From contig NZ_CP149803.1 in the NCBI RefSeq assembly GCF_037943105.1, forward strand, positions 3,328,001 through 3,392,000: a stretch of DNA of 64,000 nt. Direction: 5' to 3'. Below the pieces are notes generated by a model that did not search any database, was not told the DNA's origin, and saw only the letters and a list, made by a program, of their open reading frames with translations. The DNA comes from Pseudomonas sp. TMP9 (GTDB lineage Bacteria; Pseudomonadota; Gammaproteobacteria; Pseudomonadales; Pseudomonadaceae). Shown here piece by piece: positions 32,375 through 35,636 of the stretch (position 1 is the first letter of the stretch; each line of letters starts with the position of its first letter). The translations under genes and the position numbers were made by a program.

Positions 32375-32403
32375 TTGATACCCGTCAAAGAATGCTAAAT
32401 ACT
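32375..32403 (+). promoter_or_regulatory. Promoter of the radical-SAM gene overlapping a LexA box
   Basis: TTGATA (32375-32380) and AATACT (32398-32403) are separated by 17 bases, a good sigma-70 arrangement. The -10 box overlaps the LexA operator, so repressor binding would block RNA polymerase. The predicted start of RNA is near 32410. Confidence 0.7.
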
Positions 32404-32419
32404 GTATGCATAAACAGTT
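32400..32419. promoter_or_regulatory. LexA (SOS) operator
   Basis: TACTGTATGCATAAACAGTT matches the gamma-proteobacterial SOS box TACTGTATATAAAAACAGTA almost completely, including the invariant CTGT-N8-ACAG core. It sits over the -10 region of the radical-SAM promoter and 17 bases before its chosen start codon. No other gene in the window shows such a box to my eye. Confidence 0.9.
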
Positions 32420-32435
32420 ACTTTTAGGCATAACC

Positions 32436-33647
32436 ATGCAGCTGATCGAAAAACTTACCGTGCTCGCCGATGCCGCCAAGTACGATGCTTCTTGCGCCAG
32501 CAGCGGCGCGCCGACGCGCAGTTCCAAAGGCAAAAGCGGTGTGGGCTCAACCAACGGCATGGGCATTTGCCACAGCTTCACCCCTGACGGCCGCTGCGTA
32601 GCCCTGCTGAAAATACTGCTGACCAACTTCTGTTTGTACGATTGCCAATATTGCGTCAACCGCCGCTCCAGTGATGTGCCGCGAGCGCGCTTCACCCCTG
32701 AAGAAGTGGTGACCCTGACTATCGATTTCTACAAGCGCAACTGCATCAGCGGGCTGTTTCTAAGCTCAGGCATCATCCGCTCAGCGGACTACACCATGGA
32801 GCAGCTGATCCGCGTGGCCAAACTATTGCGCGAAGAACATGAGTTTCGTGGCTACATCCACCTCAAGACCATCCCCGACGCCGACCCGCTGCTGATTGCC
32901 GAGGCCGGCCGCTACGCCGATCGCCTCAGCGTGAATATCGAACTGCCCACCGAAGCCAGTCTTATTCGCCTGGCACCGGAAAAACAGGTGCGCACCATCA
33001 AACAAGCCATGCACTCGATTCATCAGGGTGAAAGCGAAGCTCGCGCCGATAAACGTGCACCCCGCTTCGCCCCCGCAGGGCAAAGTACGCAAATGATCAT
33101 CGGTGCCGATGCCACCGATGACAGCACCATCCTGCACACCGCCGCCACACTATATGGTGACTACCGCTTGCGCCGCGTGTATTACTCAGCCTTTAGCCCG
33201 ATCCCGCAAAGCCCGAATACCGTGCCTTTTGAAGCGCCACCGTTGCTGCGCGAGCACCGCTTGTACCAAGCGGATTTTCTGATGCGCGGCTATGGCTTTG
33301 AGGCCAGCGAGTTGCTCAGTGGCCCCGGCAATCTGGCGTTGGACATCGACCCAAAGCTGGCGTGGGCGTTGAATAACCGCGCGTATTTCCCCGTCGACCT
33401 TAATCGCGCTGAACCGGCGATGATTGCCCGAATACCCGGCATCGGCGTGCTGAGCGCAAAACGCTTGGTCGCCTTGCGCCGGCAGAAACGCATCCGCTTC
33501 GAAGACCTCGCCCGCCTGCGCTGCGGGCTTGAAAAGGCCAAGCCTTTTATCATCACCCAAGATTACCGACCCGTGCAGGCCACGCGCGAATCCCTCCTGC
33601 TGCGCCAACAACTGAGTGAAACACCCGCACAAATGGCCCTGTGGTGA
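32436..33647 (+). CDS. Radical SAM protein, putative DNA modification/repair enzyme
   Basis: A 403-residue radical SAM enzyme. The [4Fe-4S] cysteines C66, C70 and C73 form CxxxCxxC in NFCLYDCQYC, preceded by a conserved N-terminal region (KYDASCASSG and GSTNGMGICHSF). The C-terminus carries a helix-hairpin-helix DNA-binding motif (IARIPGIGVLSAKRLVAL), so the substrate is probably DNA. It belongs to the family paired with DUF4130 or uracil-DNA glycosylase-like proteins; the reaction is unknown. The start at 32436 is chosen because the ATG at 32406 lies inside the LexA operator. Its stop overlaps the next start (TGATG). SOS control by LexA is strongly implied. Confidence 0.9.
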   Translation: MQLIEKLTVLADAAKYDASCASSGAPTRSSKGKSGVGSTNGMGICHSFTPDGRCVALLKILLTNFCLYDCQYCVNRRSSDVPRARFTPEEVVTLTIDFYKRNCISGLFLSSGIIRSADYTMEQLIRVAKLLREEHEFRGYIHLKTIPDADPLLIAEAGRYADRLSVNIELPTEASLIRLAPEKQVRTIKQAMHSIHQGESEARADKRAPRFAPAGQSTQMIIGADATDDSTILHTAATLYGDYRLRRVYYSAFSPIPQSPNTVPFEAPPLLREHRLYQADFLMRGYGFEASELLSGPGNLALDIDPKLAWALNNRAYFPVDLNRAEPAMIARIPGIGVLSAKRLVALRRQKRIRFEDLARLRCGLEKAKPFIITQDYRPVQATRESLLLRQQLSETPAQMALW

Positions 33648-34525
33648 TGCACAGCGCCACCTTCGATGGCAGCTTTGCCGGTTGGCGTGATGCCGCTAGG
33701 GCGTTATTGCAGCAGGGTGTGGCACCGCATCACGTCAACTGGCTGGGTGACGGCGATACGTCTGGCCTGTTTGACCAAACGCCTGATGCCGTCAGCACGC
33801 AACCGGCCACGCCTGCCCCGCGGATCCCCAAGCAGCTGCTGGAGTTACTGCAAAGTGCCGCACGCTTTCGCGTTGAAGACCGCTGGAGCTTGCTCTATCG
33901 GATTCTCTGGCGAGTCGCCCAAGGTGATCGCGCTGCCATGCTGGCGGGGGATATGGATGGCAGCCAACTGCATAAACGACTTAAAGCGGTGCGCCGCGAG
34001 GCCCATCATCTGCATGCATTTTTGCGTTTCCACCCCCGCCCGGCTAACGCCGAAGGCCCGCAACTGGTGGCCTGGCACGAACCCGCTCATGACATTTTAT
34101 CCAGCGCCAGCGAGCACTTTGCCGAACGCTTGGGCCGCAGCACCTGGCTCATTGCTACACCGGATGACGGGGTTTATTGGGACGGTCAGCGCCTGCATTA
34201 CCAGCGCCACTGCCCAACAGAATGGCAACGGCTGGCGCAAAATCCTGAGGATGATGGTGAGGCGCTGTGGCTGGCGTATTACGGCAGCACCTTTAACCCC
34301 GCGCGACTAAACCGCAGTGCTCTGGAAAACAGCATGCCGGTACGCTTTTGGAAAAACCTACCAGAAGGCCCGCTGATCCCACGCTTGATGAGCCAAGCCC
34401 GCGCCGGCGCACAGCGCGACGGCCAGGCCGAAGCCGTCACGCGCCAGAGCGGCAAACGCATTCGCCATAGCGCAGCGAAGGCATTAGCTGTTAGCGAAAA
34501 CGTCGGGCCGGATCATCATCACTGA
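33647..34525 (+). CDS. TIGR03915/DUF4130 family DNA metabolism protein
   Basis: A 292-residue partner of the radical SAM protein, translationally coupled to it by a one-base overlap. It has the family pattern: an N-terminal ATFDGSFAGWRDAARALL, a central RLKAVRREAHHLHAFLRFHP, WLIATPDDGVYWDG, and LWLAYYGSTFNPARLN near the C-terminus. In many bacteria this domain is fused to a uracil-DNA glycosylase-like domain; here the protein ends after DUF4130 with a short basic tail, so no glycosylase is attached. Function unknown, but the SOS promoter and the partner argue for DNA repair. Its last 35 bases overlap the end of pilU on the other strand. Confidence 0.85.
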   Translation: MHSATFDGSFAGWRDAARALLQQGVAPHHVNWLGDGDTSGLFDQTPDAVSTQPATPAPRIPKQLLELLQSAARFRVEDRWSLLYRILWRVAQGDRAAMLAGDMDGSQLHKRLKAVRREAHHLHAFLRFHPRPANAEGPQLVAWHEPAHDILSSASEHFAERLGRSTWLIATPDDGVYWDGQRLHYQRHCPTEWQRLAQNPEDDGEALWLAYYGSTFNPARLNRSALENSMPVRFWKNLPEGPLIPRLMSQARAGAQRDGQAEAVTRQSGKRIRHSAAKALAVSENVGPDHHH

Positions 34526-35636
34526 TCTCCAGCGACAAGCCTTGCGCCATGCTACTGAGGTGATCGCCATCGGTTTCTGAGCCGAGCTTAATCATTAGGC
34601 GCAGATCGTTAGCCGAATCGGCATACAGCAGCGCGTCTTCGTAGGTGATCTCGCCATGGCTGTAAAGGTTGTACAGGGCCTGATCAAAGGTCTGCATGCC
34701 CTGCTCAGTGGAGCGCTTCATCAGCGCCTTGAGTTCATGCACCTCACCTTTGCGGATCAAGTCGGAAGCCAGTGGGGTGTTGATCAACACCTCAATAACT
34801 GCACGACGGCCTTTGCCATCTGGCGTCGGGATGAGCTGCTGGGCGACGATGGCCTTGAGGTTCAGCGACAAGTCCATCCACACCTGATTTTGTCGATCAG
34901 CCGGGAAGAAGTTGATGATGCGGTCCAGCGCCTGGTTAGCGTTGTTGGCGTGCAGCGTGGCCAGACACAGGTGGCCCGTTTCGGCAAAGGCCACAGCGTG
35001 GTCCATGGTTTCGCGGGTACGCACCTCACCGATCAAAATGACGTCTGGCGCTTGGCGCAGGGTGTTCTTTAGCGCCACTTCGAAGGACTCGGTGTCGATG
35101 CCAACCTCACGCTGCGTGACGATACAGCTCTGGTGCTGGTGGATGTATTCGATGGGGTCTTCGATGGAGATGATGTGGCCGCTGCTGTTCTTATTGCGGT
35201 AGCCAATCATCGCCGCCAGCGAGGTCGACTTACCGGTACCGGTTGCGCCCACAAACAACACCAAGCCGCGCTTGGTTAGGGCCAATTTTTTGAGAATCTC
35301 CGGTAGCTTCAGCTCGTCTAAAGTCGGGATATTAGTTTCGATACGGCGCAACACCATGCCAGCCAGATTGCGCTGATAGAAGGCACTTACGCGGAAACGA
35401 CCCACACCGCGAGCACTGATGGCGAAGTTGCACTCATGGTTTTCAGTAAAGTCGCGCCGTTGCTGCTCGTTCATCACAGAGTGCACGGTTTCACGGGTTT
35501 GCTCAGGCGACATGGGCGTCTTGGTGATCGGCATGATCTTGCCGTTGACCTTCATCGACGGCGGCACGCCAGCGGTAATAAACAGATCTGAGCCGCCCTT
35601 TTCGACCATCAGGCGCAGCAGTTTTTCGAATTCCAT
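34491..35636 (-). CDS. pilU: Type IV pilus ATPase PilU
   Basis: A 381-residue PilT-like hexameric ATPase that assists pilus retraction. Walker A GATGTGKST spans about residues 130-138 with Lys136; the Asp box is IISIEDPIEYIH, the Walker B region is LIGEVRTRETM and the His box is HLCLATLHANNA. The C-terminal extension (DGDHLSSMAQGLSLEISDDDPARRFR region) separates PilU from PilT. It lies downstream of pilT on the same strand with about 105 bases between them. Its stop codon lies within the end of the convergent DUF4130 gene. Confidence 0.97.
   Translation of the reverse strand: MEFEKLLRLMVEKGGSDLFITAGVPPSMKVNGKIMPITKTPMSPEQTRETVHSVMNEQQRRDFTENHECNFAISARGVGRFRVSAFYQRNLAGMVLRRIETNIPTLDELKLPEILKKLALTKRGLVLFVGATGTGKSTSLAAMIGYRNKNSSGHIISIEDPIEYIHQHQSCIVTQREVGIDTESFEVALKNTLRQAPDVILIGEVRTRETMDHAVAFAETGHLCLATLHANNANQALDRIINFFPADRQNQVWMDLSLNLKAIVAQQLIPTPDGKGRRAVIEVLINTPLASDLIRKGEVHELKALMKRSTEQGMQTFDQALYNLYSHGEITYEDALLYADSANDLRLMIKLGSETDGDHLSSMAQGLSLEISDDDPARRFR

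Follow-up and report, generated by a model that had tools for sequence, protein, structure and literature searches.

The two-gene locus and its promoter region

The window analyzed here, a 64,000-nucleotide stretch of the single-contig genome (3.75 Mb) of Pseudomonas sp. TMP9 (contig NZ_CP149803.1, positions 3,328,001 to 3,392,000), contains on its forward strand two overlapping genes that appear to form an SOS-controlled operon. Gene 1 (32436..33647) encodes a radical S-adenosylmethionine (SAM) protein of 403 amino acids (aa), assigned to the NCBIfam family TIGR03916 (rSAM_link_UDG; 544.3 bits, cut-off 343.5). The product of gene 2 (33647..34525) belongs to TIGR03915 (200.6 bits, cut-off 112.25) and DUF4130 (PF13566; 117.9 bits, cut-off 27), and ends after 292 aa without a fused C-terminal uracil-DNA glycosylase (UDG) domain. 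Both proteins score far above the cut-offs, and gene order and coupling are the same as in these families. The ATG codon of gene 2 overlaps the stop codon of gene 1 at 33647 (TGATG), with in-frame GTG codons at 33641 and 33644 as alternative starts.

The pair is preceded on the same strand by a putative sigma-70-type promoter (32375..32403), assigned by consensus match only, whose hexamers TTGATA (32375-32380) and AATACT (32398-32403) are separated by 17 bases. Its −10 hexamer is overlapped by a predicted LexA (SOS) box, TACTGTATGCATAAACAGTT (32400..32419, + strand), located 17-36 bases 5′ of the gene 1 start at 32436. The earliest ATG of the gene 1 frame (32406) falls within this box, and the TIGR03916 model begins at residue 14 of that reading, so the true start is most likely the one at 32436. 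A sequence-only reading of this DNA had described a near-consensus LexA box over the −10 region of such a promoter (found here at 32375-32419), ahead of two overlapping genes of which the second encodes a DUF4130 protein, and all of these features were confirmed.

The box was scored with a leave-one-out matrix built on five boxes of the genome (those of lexA, umuD, recA and yebG, and that of locus L017, to which no gene was assigned). It reached 23.19 bits, the same score as recA's own box, and ranked fifth among 32 exact CTGTN8ACAG sites, those of the umuD-type gene, L017 and yebG standing ahead of it; these scores are rough, since only five sites underlie the matrix. The reversed-pattern control gave 11 sites genome-wide. 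The strong sites precede lexA, recA, the umuD-type gene and yebG (these names, like FAN1 and dnaB below, were assigned from family matches), and the next best 20-mer of the window scored only 8.72 bits.

The idea that the box arose by chance, leaving the operon outside SOS control in this strain, can practically be dismissed. It draws on the finding that loose, one-mismatch CTGTN8ACAG matches in the window are not enriched (21, with 22 expected from shuffles), so that the pattern alone proves nothing, and on SOS control in this strain being read from sequence. What does prove the box is its full score, equal to that of recA and combined with overlap of the −10 hexamer, and its conservation: it recurs with at most one mismatch in 11/11 Pseudomonas relatives, and exactly in six of them. 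On these sequence grounds the LexA box of the module is real. A second exact CTGTN8ACAG site at the gene junction (33639-33654) was rejected as a chance occurrence (1.76 bits, kept in 1/11 Pseudomonas relatives).

Elsewhere in the genome, the sixth-ranked LexA-like box, CACTGTATTCTTGTACAGGA (L003, G000:C1:747799; 19.48 bits), lies 11 bases 5′ of an open reading frame (ORF) with FAN1_HTH and FANC_SAP domains, and a FAN1-type cross-link repair nuclease is probably also under SOS control. The very strong SOS box at L017, TACTGTTTATTTGTACAGTA (G000:C1:2024243), lies between two ORFs, neither of which has a Pfam match.

Damage-type operators at related loci

The LexA motif of beta- and gammaproteobacteria is CTGTN8ACAG, and that of alphaproteobacteria GTTCN7GTTC. 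The 120 bases upstream were scanned for these motifs at 76 of 87 loci (80 named genome loci and seven from plasmid and phage collections), comprising 13 gamma-, 12 beta- and 51 alphaproteobacterial ones; three Xanthomonadaceae, three Verrucomicrobia and five other loci (L059-L063, not scanned by the script) were set aside. CTGTN8ACAG with no more than one mismatch was present at 25/25 beta/gamma loci (exact in 16, one mismatch in nine), with shuffle means of 0.01 for exact sites and 1.03 with one mismatch allowed. Exact GTTCN7GTTC, on either strand, was found at 47/51 alphaproteobacterial loci (shuffle mean 0.21); four lacked it (L087, L094, L107 and L142), and two of the 51 did so with one mismatch allowed. 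Coding-region controls gave 0-2 matches. Since the conserved boxes differ by class and do not cross (GTTCN7GTTC in 0/25 beta/gamma loci, CTGTN8ACAG in 0/51 alphaproteobacterial loci), the upstream box, as read from these scans, has kept to the LexA specificity proper to each class. The SOS inducibility surmised from the window has thereby gained comparative support, and the conserved boxes strongly support SOS control of the two-gene module.

Among the loci set aside, one of the Verrucomicrobia (L125) has a one-mismatch CTGTN8ACAG site, and no match was found in the two others. In Pusillibacter (L059) a GAACN4GTTC site, resembling the Gram-positive LexA consensus, was noticed by eye roughly 155 bases upstream, where it precedes a small leading ORF.

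The three named Xanthomonadaceae loci have neither the CTGTN8ACAG nor the GTTCN7GTTC box, and share the palindrome GTCTCAN5TGAGAC at the promoter. Exact copies of it number 46 in 26 of 40 Xanthomonadaceae genomes (L148-L172, L208-L253), and the reversed control gave none. Fourteen precede a gene for a DEAH helicase that we take to be MrfA-like (it matches NCBIfam TIGR03817, below the cut-off and from a cut ORF), eight precede the radical enzyme gene, one uvrA and one a weak RmuC-like ORF (only 24% identical). The remaining 22 fell outside the seven reference genes of the script; one of these sites lies before recA (L214), two before dnaB (L227, L235) and, by eye, several before mraZ. With one mismatch allowed, the three named genomes contain 25 sites (reversed control 0), some of them preceding imuA, a PA0069-type radical SAM gene, an SRAP gene or rmuC, the rest lying beside other genes or within ORFs. 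Judged by these positions, GTCTCAN5TGAGAC looks like a candidate damage-response operator.

We take COG4277 to be the radical enzyme family TIGR03916, and it is on this assumption that the COG1573-COG4277 and CAC3343-CAC3344 operons, likewise described as under LexA-type control, are compared with the module; the module differs from these in its CTGTN8ACAG box and in having no glycosylase. SOS control of COG1573-COG4277 was predicted in Bacteroidetes and cited for Verrucomicrobia and Alphaproteobacteria (Caulobacter) (PMC8565304, available portion), and LexA control was predicted for CAC3343-CAC3344 of Clostridium acetobutylicum (PMC3828012, available portion). From gene neighbourhoods of the SOS type, Anand et al. 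(2013) had already linked DUF4130 with glycosylases and with radical SAM proteins resembling SplB (PMC3765255, available portion). Upregulation of a gene of the radical enzyme family at 8% humidity appears in the available portion of PMC13130816, while the corresponding portion of PMC5554334 does not mention the radical enzyme gene. Radical SAM genes in the LexA literature on Streptomyces and Balneolaeota were not matched to the TIGR03916 family.

Association with DUF4130 and a UdgX-type glycosylase

Among 249 genomes sampled from the phylum, 39 have the radical enzyme above the cut-off and 41 have DUF4130, and each of the 39 encodes both (39/39), which bears out the supposed co-occurrence of the two families. 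Caulobacter vibrioides, a control genome, likewise matches both families. Their genes are mostly adjacent; in G229 and G241 about 3 kb of other genes lie between them. In five loci (L061, L062, L063, L075, L090) no DUF4130 was found by tblastn, a weak negative because L062 has an annotated one. The distribution of the pair is patchy: it is absent from G130, a member of the same genus as the window's host, and from G058, G062 and G146 of the same family. A hemerythrin (PF01814) gene (L205:1722-2198, − strand) separates the radical enzyme and DUF4130-UdgX genes of one proteobacterium, and similar hemerythrin-like ORFs were seen by eye in L203 and L204; hemerythrin perhaps guards iron-sulphur clusters from oxygen.

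Within the alpha/beta locus set, the DUF4130 ORF is fused to a UdgX-like glycosylase in 57/63 cases, and UdgX is annotated in Paracoccus and Caballeronia. The long ORFs contain GEQPG in 59/59 cases and the UdgX histidine loop in 48/59 by pattern and eight more by eye, the other three being ambiguous. The histidine of this loop bonds covalently to an abasic site in UdgX. A DUF4130-glycosylase fusion also occurs in G054, of the same genus as the window's host. The fusions, the UdgX annotations and the case of G054 speak for an explanation in which the glycosylase is the core of a base-excision repair module acting on uracil or abasic sites, with the radical enzyme and DUF4130 processing abasic sites or the covalent UdgX-DNA adduct. 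The authors of the Bacteroidetes study, too, see in COG1573-COG4277 a putative system for base excision repair (PMC8565304, available portion).

However, and unlike TIGR03916/TIGR03915 pairs that are accompanied by a glycosylase, the genome containing the window (G000) has no TIGR03914 match, fused or separate, nor do three genomes of the same family that carry the pair (G190, G237 and G023). DUF4130 is likewise unfused in the Bacteroides and Pusillibacter loci. We therefore regard a glycosylase-centred module as unlikely. The link to uracil-DNA glycosylases mentioned by the sequence-only reading is borne out for most alpha/beta loci but not for this genome. As the same-genus G054 has the fusion, the distribution suggests that the glycosylase was lost in the window's lineage, and since the glycosylase to which DUF4130 is usually fused finds no match here, the core would consist of the radical SAM enzyme and DUF4130.

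Protein features and proposed function

The CxxxCxxC motif of gene 1 corresponds to residues 66/70/73, and all three cysteines are invariant in the family alignment; the protein also matches PF04055 (30.7 bits, cut-off 29.5). Its closest named relative is that of Pseudomonas peli (95% identity). The earlier assignment to radical SAM enzymes thus stands, whereas the accompanying C-terminal helix-hairpin-helix (HHH), at residues ~320-359, matched Pfam HHH_3 with 23 bits, below the 27-bit cut-off; in many close relatives among the matches listed, precomputed annotation includes PF12836. The predicted structure is a radical-SAM barrel (predicted local distance difference test (pLDDT) 85.1, predicted template-modelling score (pTM) 0.84), with HydE, BioB and LipA as the closest neighbours in Foldseek and VIA-align, and MqnE and RlmN also among them. 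PDB sequence searches with the module's proteins gave best E values of 0.073 and 0.66.

The solved folds nearest to this model have small molecules, peptides or RNA as their substrates, and no biochemistry of the pair was found in the literature. It is conceivable that the pair targets not DNA but tRNA, a protein or a small molecule (a nucleotide, for example), its induction simply accompanying the SOS response. The HHH domain, the partner's fusions with a DNA glycosylase and the damage-type regulation kept across classes speak against it, and we consider such a target distinctly improbable.

Besides C66/C70/C73, residues C20, C45, H46 and C54 are invariant in 58/58 aligned sequences. The extra cysteines C20/C45/C54 occur in 119/120 listed close homologues (the exception is 349 residues long and probably a fragment), while a sister family, whose named members are mostly Gemmatimonadota, has the radical-SAM triad in 120/120 and the extra cysteines in 0/120, both being narrow samples (120 listed of 8000 scored homologues and 120 of 7817, respectively). 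As the N-terminal cysteines are invariant in the aligned sequences and absent from the listed members of the sister family, their conservation suggests a second metal site. This site is perhaps tied to the DUF4130 partnership; tblastn found no DUF4130 at the one sister-family locus examined, which is a weak negative.

Spore photoproduct lyase (SPL, SplB) and PA0069-type proteins, of which a DNA lesion is the known or presumed substrate, share with gene 1 the radical SAM domain and a link to SOS or damage. Gene 1 differs from them in its extra N-terminal cysteines, HHH domain and DUF4130 partner, and an NCBIfam scan at E ≤ 0.001 matched TIGR03916 alone, in a library that should include an SPL model. 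We found no publication linking PA0069 with LexA. Lipoyl synthase (LipA/LIAS) gave the top VIA-align Z score (18.3 over 222 residues, 3.1 Å, 13% identity), tied with HydE, and likewise has three extra cysteines N-terminal to CxxxCxxC. Its auxiliary-cluster motif is C-x4-C-x5-C, and the corresponding spacing in gene 1 is C-x24-C-x8-C, which does not match the lipoyl synthase motif.

The DUF4130 model weakly resembles DHH/DHHA1-fold proteins (RecJ, Cdc45 and PAP phosphatase), without sequence support. RecJ homology by sequence was rejected: the HHalign probability was 0.2%, no better than that of an unrelated comparison (0.4%). No conserved columns corresponding to the DHH metal motif were found among 61 DUF4130 sequences, a Pfam scan of which matched no family but DUF4130 in more than four, and a BFVD search gave no match at E ≤ 0.001. 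A DHHH stretch near the C-terminus of gene 2 falls in an unconserved, His-rich tail. The DNA encoding this tail (34491-34525) overlaps by 35 bases a convergent gene (34491-35636) that is PilT/PilU-like by eye.

From these features we conclude that DNA damage probably switches on, in this Pseudomonas, a radical enzyme of the iron-sulphur type, whose tail is predicted to bind DNA, together with a partner of unassigned role, and that the two proteins most likely process damaged DNA. Family membership, the SOS box, co-occurrence and the conserved cysteines are the established part of this reading, and the rest is inferred. A LexA-repressed two-gene operon whose products form one DNA-processing machine is the interpretation we favour, with some confidence. 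Action on DNA is the best inference from the HHH domain, the radical-SAM barrel model, the UdgX-type fusions of the partner and the shared damage-type operators. Damage would lead to LexA cleavage and synthesis of both proteins, and the C-terminal HHH domain would hold the radical SAM enzyme on DNA, where a 5′-deoxyadenosyl radical could take hydrogen from the base or the deoxyribose of a damaged nucleotide. The second metal site, which is N-terminal and probably holds an auxiliary iron-sulphur cluster on C20, C45 and C54, may assist, and DUF4130 may present the lesion strand or complete the reaction. In most of the alpha- and betaproteobacteria examined, the UdgX-type glycosylase fused to DUF4130 would add lesions or trap abasic sites; in this Pseudomonas the core would work without it.

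Several points weigh against this interpretation. The HHH match of gene 1 is below the Pfam threshold, and HHH domains are in any case no proof of a DNA substrate. The model region with the extra cysteines (residues 20-53) has pLDDT <50, so that no cluster is visible in it and the case for the additional metal site comes from conservation alone. Two genomes encode DUF4130-UdgX with no radical SAM partner over the cut-off, an SOS-type box still lying upstream, and DUF4130-UdgX may therefore act alone; the boxes are of the GTTCN7GTTC type (L206, near 1001; L207, near 2909, reverse complement). Our search, outside which most subscription journals fell, found no published substrate, product or mutant phenotype, and no publication naming the reaction of the radical SAM/DUF4130 pair. 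The repair or modification of damaged DNA by radical chemistry, as first envisaged, is the most likely function, although neither the present analysis nor the literature found shows a DNA substrate. The reaction is undescribed in that literature, as the sequence-only reading held, but the module is less new than it implied: NCBI names TIGR03916 and TIGR03915 putative DNA repair proteins (modification/repair), and SOS control of such operons had been reported or cited in several phyla.

A variant of the favoured interpretation, which we regard as a long shot, is a two-cluster, LipA-like radical SAM enzyme acting on DNA. Here the C20/C45/C54 auxiliary iron-sulphur cluster would bind or donate to the damaged nucleotide, and DUF4130 would be a degenerate DHH/RecJ-like strand-holding subunit; the outcome could be sulphur insertion, or the resolving of an abasic-site or UdgX-type DNA-protein adduct. 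If true, the direct repair of DNA would gain a new chemical class.

The word modification in the NCBI name and the patchy presence of the pair would also fit DNA modification for defence or tolerance rather than repair, e.g. the marking of damaged or foreign DNA. This is very unlikely given the SOS control and the lack of family matches in PADLOC (0 families matched by three proteins) and PHROGs. Phage origin of the module was considered separately and rejected. Ten phage-collection records were matched, headed by two labelled Acinetobacter phage MD-2021a; in one of these, L062 (CAKLQH020000003.1), the module is flanked by chromosomal genes, glyS and glyQ among them, and the record is therefore probably a mislabelled bacterial contig. 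In viral_contigs, 2/26 pattern stretches encode a relative.

The pair is thus known and widespread, and the window contains a UDG-less member of a known SOS module; new here are the cysteine triad, the glycosylase-less core, the DHH/DHHA1 likeness of DUF4130 and the Xanthomonadaceae palindrome. The conserved cysteines offer a clean mutational handle. The Pseudomonas pair would represent a minimal two-protein form, whose core reaction may be separable from UDG activity. That a LexA box of its own has been kept at the module in three proteobacterial classes (alpha, beta and gamma), together with the reports from other phyla, implies that it may serve some common lesion of DNA or a common step in its repair.
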